Shown: positions 15,764 through 18,720 of the stretch, in pieces | How the letters are laid out: every line of letters begins with the position of its first letter | How positions within the stretch are numbered: position 1 is the stretch's first letter | Origin: Azospirillaceae bacterium | GTDB taxonomy: Bacteria; Pseudomonadota; Alphaproteobacteria; Azospirillales; Azospirillaceae | Reading direction: 5' to 3' | DNA length: 64,000 nucleotides | NCBI GenBank assembly: GCA_035645145.1 | Contig: DASQNC010000016.1 | Location: forward strand, 62,001-126,000 | The notes under the pieces: generated by a model | The model's database searches: none | What the model was told of the DNA's origin: nothing | Seen by the model: the letters and a program-made list of their open reading frames with translations, nothing else | Program-made: the position numbers and the translations under genes

Positions 15764-16744
15764 TCATCTTTTTAGCGCGGCGACGATGGCGCCGATGTTG
15801 TGCCGCAGCATCGCCGCATGGGACGGGGCCGGACCTCCGGGCCCGGACAGGGCATCGGAGTAAAGCCGGCCGCCCACCACGGCCCCGGACTCCGCGGCGA
15901 TCCGTTCGATCACCCGGGGATTGGACACGTTCTCCACGAACACCGCGCGGATGCCGTCCTGCCGCACCTGCCGGATCAGCGCGGCCACCTGCTGGGCGGT
16001 GGGCTCGGCATCCGTGGACAGGCCCTGCGCGGGGACGAAGGCGATGCCGAACCGGTCGCCCAGATAGCCGAAGCTGTCATGGGACGTCACGACCCGGCGC
16101 CGATCCGGCGGAACGGCGGCCAATTGCTCGTGCCCCCAGGTCTCGATCCGGGCCAATTCCTGGGCATAGGCGTCGGCGTTGGCCCGGAACCGGTCGGCGC
16201 GCGCCGGGGCGATCTTGGCAAGGCCGTCCGCGATGTTGCGGACCATCGCCTGCGCCCGCAGCGGGTCCTGCCAAATGTGGGGATCCGCGGAGGCGGGGGA
16301 ATGGGCATGACCATGGGAGTGGCCGGACTTCGCCTTTGCCGGACCGTGCCCCGGCCCATGCGCCGCGTCCTTGCCCATTCCGAGGGTCGGCACGCCCTCG
16401 CTGGCGGTGACCACCGGCCCCTTGTAGTTGGCCGAGCGGATCAAGCGGGTCATCCACCCCTCGAATCCATGGCCATTCACGACCACGAGCTGGGCCTGCG
16501 ACACCGCGCGGGCGTGGGCCGGCGACGGTTGGAACACGTGGGCGTCGGCGTCGGGGCCGATGAGGGGGGCGACCTCCACGGCATCGCCGCCGACCACCCG
16601 GACCATATCCGCCAGCACGCTGAAGGACGCCACCACGCGGACCTTGCCCGCAGAGGCTTCCTGTGCCGCCGCGGGCAAGGCGCCCAGGATGGGGACGGCC
16701 AGCAGGGCAGCGGCAAAGCCCAGCAGCCGGCGGCGTGCGGTCAT
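15764..16744 (-). CDS. znuA: zinc ABC transporter substrate-binding protein
   Basis: 326 residues; ATG 16744 has AAGGA seven bases upstream. A signal peptide (RRR then LLGFAAALLAVPILGALPAAAQ) directs it to the periplasm. It is a cluster A-I metal-binding protein: ligand His in DAHVFQPSP, a His-rich loop (~128-152, with HGPGHGP and SGHSHGHAHS) characteristic of zinc rather than manganese binders, His in DPHIWQDP, His in TSHDSFGY, and an acidic ligand in STDAEPT. It captures Zn(II) and delivers it to ZnuB. It is the last gene of the znuC-znuB-znuA operon, 19 bp after znuB. Confidence 0.92.
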   Translation of the reverse strand: MTARRRLLGFAAALLAVPILGALPAAAQEASAGKVRVVASFSVLADMVRVVGGDAVEVAPLIGPDADAHVFQPSPAHARAVSQAQLVVVNGHGFEGWMTRLIRSANYKGPVVTASEGVPTLGMGKDAAHGPGHGPAKAKSGHSHGHAHSPASADPHIWQDPLRAQAMVRNIADGLAKIAPARADRFRANADAYAQELARIETWGHEQLAAVPPDRRRVVTSHDSFGYLGDRFGIAFVPAQGLSTDAEPTAQQVAALIRQVRQDGIRAVFVENVSNPRVIERIAAESGAVVGGRLYSDALSGPGGPAPSHAAMLRHNIGAIVAALKR

Positions 16745-16763: not shown

Positions 16764-17636
16764 TCAAGCCGAGAGATGGCGCGTCCGGCGCGGCAGACGG
16801 GCCAGGCCGCCCTGCGTGCCGAACAGGAGCGAGACGATGTAGGCCGCCCCGGCGGCCAGGATGATCGCCGGCCCGGACGCCACATCGAGGTGGAACGAGA
16901 CAACCAGACCCGCATAACCGGCAGCGGCGGCTATGCCCACGGCGACGGCGACCAGAGGTCCCACCTCCCGCGCCCAGAACCGCGCGGTGGCCGCGGGCAG
17001 CATCATCAGGCCCACCGCCATCAACGTGCCCAGCGCTTGGAAACCCGCCACCAGGTTCAGGACCACCAGCATCATGAAGGCCAGATGGTAGACCCCGCCG
17101 CGGCCGCCGACCGCCCGCAGGAAGCCCGGATCGAAGCTTTCCAGCACCAGCGGCCGGTAGATCAGCGCCAGGACGAACAGGGTCACCGTCGTAATGGAGG
17201 CGACCAGCAGCAGTGCCGGATCGTCCACCGCCAACACCGTGCCGAACAGCACGTGCATCAAGTCGACGTTGGAGCCGCGGGACGAAATCATGAAGACGCC
17301 GGCCGCCAGCGAGATCAGGTAGAAGGCCGCGAAACTCGCGTCCTCCTTCAAGGCCGTCCGGCGGGAAACCAGTCCGGCCAACAGCGCCACCGCCATTCCG
17401 GCCGCGAACCCGCCCACGCTCATCGCCGGCAGCGACAAGCCCGACACCAGGAACCCGAAGGCCGCCCCCGGCAGGATGGCGTGGCTCATGCTGTCGCCGA
17501 CCAGACTCATCCGCCGCAGCACCAGCAGGACGCCGACCGGGCCGCAGCCCAGGGCAAGCGCGAACGTCGCCACCAGCGCGCGGCGCATGAACGCGAAATC
17601 GGCGAAGGGCGCCAACAGGAGATCGTAAGCGGTCAC
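16764..17636 (-). CDS. znuB: zinc ABC transporter permease
   Basis: 290 residues, ABC-3 family inner-membrane permease with about eight hydrophobic helices. The family block near the N-terminus (LRRMSLVGDSMSHAILPGAAFGF) couples to the ATPase; the second signature is GLMMLPAATARFW. The gene lies 26 bp after znuC and 19 bp before znuA, so it is translated from the same zinc-controlled message. It forms the homodimeric channel for Zn(II) delivered by ZnuA. Confidence 0.92.
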   Translation of the reverse strand: MTAYDLLLAPFADFAFMRRALVATFALALGCGPVGVLLVLRRMSLVGDSMSHAILPGAAFGFLVSGLSLPAMSVGGFAAGMAVALLAGLVSRRTALKEDASFAAFYLISLAAGVFMISSRGSNVDLMHVLFGTVLAVDDPALLLVASITTVTLFVLALIYRPLVLESFDPGFLRAVGGRGGVYHLAFMMLVVLNLVAGFQALGTLMAVGLMMLPAATARFWAREVGPLVAVAVGIAAAAGYAGLVVSFHLDVASGPAIILAAGAAYIVSLLFGTQGGLARLPRRTRHLSA

Positions 17637-17662: not shown

Positions 17663-18406
17663 TCACGCCACGGCCCGCTCGCAGGCGGCGGCCGTTTCGT
17701 CCCACGCCTCGGCCATGGTGCGGGCGCGCCACAGATGCTCGGGCGTCAGGACGTCGTTCGTGGCCCCCCACGCGATCAGGTCGCGGGCCAGCAGCAGGGT
17801 TTCGGGAAAGTGCCGACGGACCTGGTCCAGATCGTGGAGCACGGCAACCACCGTGCGCCGCTCGCCGTGCCAACGGCCGACAAGCGCCAGCAGGTCCGCG
17901 GTGGTGCGCGCGTCCAACGCGTTGAACGGCTCGTCCAGAAGGATCACGCGCGCATCCTGCAGCAGCATGCGGGCGAACAACACCCGCTGGAACTGCCCGG
18001 CCGACAGGGAGCCGATGGGCCGGCGCTCGAACCCCCTCAACCCGACCGCGTCCAGCGCCTGCCTGCCCTGGTCGCGCAAATCGGCGCCGATCCGCCGGAA
18101 CGGCCCCACCCGATGCCAATGCCCCATCAGCACGCAGTCGATCACGCTAATGGGAAAGGACCGGTCGATCTCCGCCTGCTGCGGAAGGTAGGCCAAGTCG
18201 GCCGGGTCAATCGCCCCACGATCGATTCGCCCCTGCATCGGACGCAGCAGCCCGGCGATGGCTTTCAGCAACGTGCTTTTGCCCGCACCGTTCGGCCCCA
18301 CCACGGCCGTCAGCGATCCCGGCGCAAAGCGCCCGGTCACGTGGTGGACGGCGGGGTGCCGTTCGTACCCCACGGTCAGGTCGGTCAGGCGGATGGCGTC
18401 CATCAT
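17663..18406 (-). CDS. znuC: zinc ABC transporter ATP-binding protein
   Basis: 247 residues from ATG 18406 (ATG 18403 is the next codon and equally possible). Walker A is GPNGAGKST (~37-45), the Q-loop region is LAYLPQQAEIDR, the signature is a slightly unusual SAGQFQRV (LSAGQ for LSGGQ), Walker B is VILLDEPFNALD and the switch His is in VLHDLD. It powers ZnuB at the cytoplasmic face. It begins 4 bp after the stop of the 65-codon ORF, with no clear ribosome binding site of its own, so its translation may depend on that upstream ORF. Confidence 0.92.
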   Translation of the reverse strand: MMDAIRLTDLTVGYERHPAVHHVTGRFAPGSLTAVVGPNGAGKSTLLKAIAGLLRPMQGRIDRGAIDPADLAYLPQQAEIDRSFPISVIDCVLMGHWHRVGPFRRIGADLRDQGRQALDAVGLRGFERRPIGSLSAGQFQRVLFARMLLQDARVILLDEPFNALDARTTADLLALVGRWHGERRTVVAVLHDLDQVRRHFPETLLLARDLIAWGATNDVLTPEHLWRARTMAEAWDETAAACERAVA

Positions 18407-18410
18407 GGCG

Positions 18411-18608
18411 TCAGTCCAAAGCCCAAAGCACCGCCGCCCAAAGCCCGGCGCAAGCAACGGCCGTGGCCACCAGGCGCGCACCGGCCCCCTCGGCGATCAG
18501 CGCCACATCGGTGCGCCACCGCGTCGCCCCGGCGCGCCACCGCGTCGCCCCGGTGCGCAGCCGGCCCTGCCGCGGGCGACCCGGTTCGAAGTGGGTGGTC
18601 TGATGCAT
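18411..18608 (-). CDS. 65-residue single-helix membrane protein leading the znu operon
   Basis: I know of no family for it. ATG 18608 has AGGGG eight bases upstream. The N-terminal 33 residues are basic and polar, beginning MHQTTHF with two His that could touch metal, and contain a 7-residue duplication (GATRWRA, GATRWRT). Residues ~45-63 form one hydrophobic helix (LVATAVACAGLWAAVLWAL) ending in LD. The predicted topology is N-in with a positively charged cytoplasmic tail. It is the first gene after the Zur-like operator and its stop is 4 bp before znuC, so it is co-transcribed and probably translationally coupled. It might be a transporter accessory peptide, a sensor peptide or only a translated leader. 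Confidence 0.58.
   Translation of the reverse strand: MHQTTHFEPGRPRQGRLRTGATRWRAGATRWRTDVALIAEGAGARLVATAVACAGLWAAVLWALD
18511..18552. repeat. 21-bp tandem duplication inside the 65-codon ORF
   Basis: Two adjacent 21-bp copies (18511-18531 and 18532-18552) differ at one base (GTGCGCC versus GCGCGCC) and are followed by the first six bases of a third. The unit is a multiple of three, so it adds seven residues in frame (GATRWR A/T). Confidence 0.9.
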
Positions 18609-18630
18609 GCCGTCGCCCCTGCGCCTTGCT

Positions 18631-18653
18631 GGAATGTTATAACGTATCATTCC
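18631..18653. promoter_or_regulatory. Zur-like operator of the zinc operon
   Basis: GGAATG-11 bp-CATTCC with a TTATAACGTAT centre: a 23-bp dyad with perfect 6-bp outer arms and a near-palindromic TA-rich core. It matches the general layout of proteobacterial Zur boxes (AATGTTATA...). It is the most AT-rich spot of the region, 22 bp upstream of the 65-codon ORF start, so Zn-bound Zur would block the znu promoter. The zur gene is not in the window. Confidence 0.78.
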
Positions 18654-18677: not shown

Positions 18678-18720
18678 GCCCCGCATCCGGGAATCGGAGT
18701 CCGATTCCCGGATGCGGGGC
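18678..18720 (-). terminator. terminator of murQ
   Basis: Perfect 20-bp stem with a 3-base loop, starting 9 bp after the murQ stop on the minus strand. There is no poly-T tail (GAATCGTCCCCTT follows). It separates murQ from the znu promoter, which lies immediately downstream on the same strand, so it would stop read-through into the zinc operon. Confidence 0.62.

Follow-up and report, generated by a model that had tools for sequence, protein, structure and literature searches.

KdpF and CydX are small single-helix subunits of KdpABC and cytochrome bd, respectively, and CbtB is a small one-helix subunit of a cobalt transporter that carries a His motif in a C-terminal tail. Deletion and promoter analyses have reportedly been carried out on zinc importers of the Zni/Tro type in Rhizobium, Agrobacterium, and Klebsiella, which are treated as three-gene systems. 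A further small single-helix subunit, AcrZ, belongs to AcrB (PMC7267776). The parts available to us of the papers on Klebsiella pneumoniae (PMC10797113) and Rhizobium leguminosarum (PMC12183173) present zniCBA as three genes and make no mention of a small one; the former part describes the operon's position behind mltB, and the latter locates a Zur box 153 bp upstream of zniC.

The operon described here lies in a window of 64,000 nucleotides from an Azospirillaceae bacterium (assembly GCA_035645145.1, contig DASQNC010000016.1, positions 62,001 to 126,000) and appears to encode the same type of importer as ZniCBA of K. pneumoniae and R. leguminosarum and TroCBA of Agrobacterium tumefaciens. Its ATPase, permease, and binding protein are also related to those of AztABCD from Paracoccus denitrificans, but the AztABCD-type operons that we tested are without a small gene and several carry aztD, whereas the window operon begins with a small gene and has no adjoining aztD. 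The predicted small protein resembles KdpF, CydX, and AcrZ as a hydrophobic single helix of the 30- to 50-aa kind that would be bound to one membrane complex; it differs from them in that no sequence match exists in Pfam or the PDB and in that its partner would be a ZnuABC-class ABC importer for zinc. As with CbtB, one helix and a His-rich tail occur together in the operon of a metal transporter, but again there is no Pfam match, the His tail is N-terminal in the new family and C-terminal in CbtB, and the partner is a different one. Judged by sequence, the protein has both hallmarks of small accessory transporter subunits, namely, a single membrane helix and strict partnership with one complex.

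The importer operon and its first gene

The minus strand reads, in order, a murQ-like gene, a 41-bp palindrome, a Zur-like box, a 65-codon ORF, and the genes for an ATPase, a permease, and a binding protein. The ATPase (17663..18406, minus strand) clears the NCBIfam equivalog cutoff for AztA (NF040873, 226 bits; cutoff, 220). The ABC-3 permease (16764..17636, minus strand; PF00950) and the solute-binding protein with its His-rich loop (15764..16744, minus strand; PF01297) have AztB (NF040871, 264 bits; cutoff, 280) and AztC (NF040870, 281 bits; cutoff, 350) as their nearest NCBIfam models, and both stay below the equivalog cutoffs. The cutoffs for canonical ZnuABC were not reached either (84 bits of 306 for ZnuC and 83 of 284 for ZnuB). 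Because the ATPase passes the AztA cutoff and falls far short of that for ZnuC, these scores identify the importer as Azt/Zni-like and not as canonical ZnuABC, and the initial annotation, which had called the gene behind the small ORF znuC, needs correction to an AztA-type gene. Downstream of aztC, the window holds a tRNA-like stretch, followed by an ORF for a histidine kinase, with no further long ORF that could be a gene for the metallochaperone AztD. A second ABC-3 permease in the genome (G000:C9:34003-34827), 35% identical to AztB, is probably the canonical ZnuB.

The small ORF (18411..18608, minus strand) translates as MHQTTHFEPGRPRQGRLRTGATRWRAGATRWRTDVALIAEGAGARLVATAVACAGLWAAVLWALD, followed by the stop codon. 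An AGGGG ribosome binding site (18616..18620, minus strand) lies 7 nt 5' of its ATG at 18608, and a Zur-like operator, GGAATGATACGTTATAACATTCC (18631..18653, minus strand), lies upstream; the 15-mer core of this operator (18635-18649) matches TGTTATANTATAACA at 12 of 15 positions. The stop, which ends at 18411, is separated by 4 nt from the ATPase ATG at 18406, and no Shine-Dalgarno sequence was seen before that ATG in the window sequence. The protein has a single hydrophobic helix near its C-terminus and a basic N-terminus whose Arg-rich tail contains two His residues only. The initial annotation had described just such an arrangement, a 65-residue membrane peptide with a basic, His-containing N-terminus as the operon's first gene, its signals, and an ATPase gene with no obvious ribosome binding site, and all of this stands.

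A single-sequence AlphaFold2 model predicts one long helix (residues 14-64), as would be expected and nothing beyond that. The variable N-terminal tail contains an in-frame 21-bp tandem duplication (18510..18551, minus strand) that codes for GATRWRA-GATRWRT. Between the murQ-like gene and the zinc operon lies the 41-bp perfect palindrome, CCCCGCATCCGGGAATCGGAGTCCGATTCCCGGATGCGGGG (18679-18719), which has no T run and is probably a terminator-like stem.

Scans of Pfam, NCBIfam, and PHROG with 20 and 24 members of the family gave only isolated, weak, and unrelated matches, and a sequence search of the PDB gave no match to the small protein. A resemblance to FtsX (NF038346) reached 15.7 bits against a cutoff of 250 and was dismissed. 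Public records list members as "hypothetical protein" (Skermanella mucosa WP_202684557.1, Paracoccaceae bacterium QEW23251.1, and Thioclava WP_339115353.1), and at two loci an incomplete gene table lists no gene at the position. The family is thus missing from family databases; an earlier description outside the open-access literature is possible.

Distribution of the small gene

A short ORF in GC-rich DNA is no evidence by itself, and we therefore read the DNA in front of the ATPase gene in relatives. Used as the sole query, the window peptide returned many weak matches and hardly retrieved its relatives by sequence search; because only matches beside the permease mattered, the ATPase and permease were used as anchors to collect them. 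Twenty genomes of the family have an AztB-like permease, and in every one of them an ORF of 33 to 65 aa with one hydrophobic helix precedes the ATPase gene; Arg45, Leu56, and Trp57 are invariant in the alignment of the family members. A first set of loci from the class had the small gene in 28 cases of 28. A test profile built from the family members and 26 class sequences was then run on 60 further class loci that it had not seen, and 58 of these have the ORF, mostly at 7 to 37 bits, whereas the reverse strand of the same 60 loci never gave more than 2.6 bits. Two loci with low profile scores (L135 and L147) are plainly members by eye; two of the 60 (L153 and L158) are without the small ORF.

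A 29-position profile of the conserved core, which in the window comprises R45, L56, W57, and W62 around the single membrane helix (18414..18500, minus strand; matched at G000:C16:80414-80500 with an E value of 5.4e-8), was searched over whole genomes regardless of position. Within the order, each of the 27 genomes with an AztA/ZniC-type ATPase gave exactly one match, always beside aztA and directly upstream of it, and the 55 importer-negative genomes together gave one, at chance level (E = 0.009). The search of 398 genomes from the phylum gave 61 matches. We read 49, and 46 of these lie directly upstream of aztA or aztB, and the other 3 have E values of 0.007 to 0.009, with about 4 chance matches expected in 398 genomes. 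Of 80 named loci found via the permease, 79 extend far enough upstream, and 78 of these have the small gene, its carriers including Rhizobium, Agrobacterium, Methylobacterium, Komagataeibacter, Pseudomonas, and Chromobacterium, among others; among these 79, Kushneria pakistanensis is without it. At two loci (L253 and L270), Gln replaces the core Arg, and membership was judged by eye.

The family spans Alpha-, Beta-, and Gammaproteobacteria, and one Planctomycetota and one Gemmatimonadota bin also carry the gene, although these are metagenome bins and possibly misassigned. Its retention in strongly reduced genomes (0.9 to 1.5 Mb) hints that it is needed. We observed it alongside aztAB in one genome of 1.2 Mb and another of 0.9 Mb. 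In R. leguminosarum, a 42-codon member occupies most of the 153-bp space between the Zur box and zniC. At another locus (L212), the small gene lies between the Zur box and zniC, with an MltB-like gene upstream, as described for Klebsiella zniCBA, and this shared position suggests that the Klebsiella-type operon also has the small gene. At six loci, from several Azospirillum and Skermanella genomes, a co-directional gene lies directly 5' of the small gene; it is annotated as DUF1826 in Skermanella mucosa and looks similar at the remaining loci, a link between the DUF1826 family and the zinc operon.

Other importers do without the small gene. None was found in ten canonical znuCB operons from the same family (profile scores of at most 2.2 bits) or in six AztABCD-type operons (two from Paracoccus and one each from Sinorhizobium, Phyllobacterium, Devosia, and Bradyrhizobium). 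In the permease tree, five of the six AztABCD-type permeases fall into a single clade with full support amid the small-gene-associated permeases, which fits a single loss, in a tree with long branches and few sampled absences. Importers with a related AztB can thus manage without the small gene, which makes it dispensable in principle and counts against an accessory-subunit role. Three AztB residues, R18, S68, and D138, are conserved where the small gene is present and changed in the AztABCD clade that has none, R18 being replaced by Gln in each of the five AztABCD-type sequences; they are candidate contact sites on the permease (window 16764-17636, minus strand), a lead that comes from one clade.

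Selection, core, and tails

The aligned copies evolve as protein-coding sequence. In the proposed frame, dN/dS over 47 non-overlapping pairs of related copies is 0.21 (bootstrap, 0.16 to 0.26) versus 1.1 and 2.4 in the shifted frames, with selection of members by profile score possibly depressing dN slightly. The conservation at the amino acid level on which the initial annotation had staked its proposal is therefore present, in three classes and with silent changes preferred. Taken with the distribution, these comparisons indicate that the small ORF is a protein-coding gene of an unnamed family of single-helix membrane proteins of about 29 to 110 aa.

The core has the gap-free form R-x11-W-x4-W, with Trp at +12 and +17 from the Arg. 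The Arg is present in 221/221 members, a count inflated by setting the register on it, and the Trp residues are present in 213/221 and 193/221, counts that are less affected. The density of Lys plus Arg is 0.15 per residue ahead of the helix and 0.02 behind it, with N exceeding C in 220 of 226 members, a set that includes four unrelated matches taken out before the operator and stop/start counts. Because these residues are six times as dense before the helix as after it, the N-terminus should, by the positive-inside rule, be cytoplasmic. A His-rich N-terminal tail, such as MVPAASQAHHHDHAHGHSHGHAHGHDHTHAHVHD, occurs in 34 members (~15%) from several distinct regions of the AztB tree. In five loci of one gammaproteobacterial group, the tail ends, after several His residues and immediately before the helix, in a fixed motif, E-G-P-C-H-F-S-L-M-S-L, which is a possible Cys/His metal site. 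The C-terminal ends of members differ in length and sequence, and an arrest peptide was set aside for this reason.

A Zur-like 15-mer (at least 12/15) lies upstream in 126/219 relatives, compared with 2.4 expected from mononucleotide shuffles. With the aztA start taken as the one nearest the stop, which biases toward small distances, the stop and start are at most 20 nt apart in 215/221 members, and the nearest in-frame start is inferred to overlap the stop by 4 nt in 136/221.

A putative accessory subunit of the permease

In the searches made here, the small gene stands first in a zinc operon behind a Zur-like box, usually abuts or overlaps the ATPase gene, and accompanies one importer subtype only. 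Because the protein is conserved, prefers silent changes, and is tied to the importer, a role with the permease is the natural reading, and we put the probability that it serves the AztAB/ZniCB-type zinc importer as a small accessory membrane subunit at roughly 0.6. The initial annotation's idea that the peptide tunes ZnuB/ZnuC thus survives as to the kind of role but not as to the partner, which is not canonical ZnuABC. The helix would insert with its N-terminus in the cytoplasm, and its conserved Arg/Trp face would pack on the AztB-type permease and so stabilize or tune the AztA2B2 complex, by analogy with KdpF, CydX, and AcrZ and their partners. The N-terminal tail would be presented at the cytoplasmic exit of the permease, where a His-rich tail, if present, might bind zinc as it enters and either hand it on or exert feedback on transport. 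The more specific proposal, an obligate subunit of a large subclass of zinc ABC importers whose cytoplasmic, often His-rich tail receives zinc or gates transport by feedback, can be put forward only tentatively. Although sensing or hand-off is an attractive role for the His-tailed members, it cannot hold for the whole family, most of which lacks such a tail.

Other readings give the peptide a different part or none. The initial annotation also raised a translational leader, that is, an ORF read only to bring ribosomes to the ATPase start, its peptide being functionless. The 4-nt gap in the window, the frequent stop/start overlap in relatives, and an aztA without a Shine-Dalgarno sequence in the window do fit translational coupling, but coupling is equally compatible with a working protein, and a leader explains neither the purifying selection on the amino acid sequence nor a membrane helix conserved in three classes with fixed Arg-Trp spacing; the variable C-terminal ends are also unlike those of arrest peptides, and we regard a leader as unlikely. 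That the ORF is a product of chance or an annotation artifact, as the 52 open frames of at least 40 aa between 15 and 21.5 kb of this GC-rich window might suggest, is rejected by all of the conservation results, including the gap between forward and reverse strands, and merits practically no credence.

It is doubtful, too, that sensing or accepting zinc in the cytosol is the protein's main task, which would make it a zinc-binding device near the importer exit that passes zinc on or shuts transport at high zinc. The setting in a zinc operon with a Zur-like box, the gene for a GTP-binding protein that comes after the importer in Skermanella, and the His-rich tails on the predicted cytoplasmic side argue for it, and these tails lend the zinc sensing proposed in the initial annotation some indirect support. 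However, most members have few or no His residues, the window copy with its two included, and the conserved part is the helix and not a metal site. An independent Zur-regulated membrane peptide, active elsewhere and merely cotranscribed with the importer, would suit a gene that comes first in its operon and whose product's contact with AztB is inferred, but it is very improbable, as genome-wide searches gave only a few chance-level matches away from the importer and the gene is absent from canonical znuCB and AztABCD operons.

The accessory-subunit reading implies that zinc transporters of a class already under study probably contain a component missed in earlier counts. If a fourth, conserved membrane component is encoded between the Zur box and the ATPase gene, heterologous expression and structural work, as well as promoter fusions that assume the ATPase gene to be first, may be incomplete. 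The protein would add a clear case to the single-helix subunits of transporters, a small class, and it allows a direct test of zinc reception at the cytoplasmic face of an ABC importer, a step that is poorly understood. An obligate subunit that gates transport by its tail would, if true, be a one-helix control device new to ZnuABC-type importers, for which we know of none.
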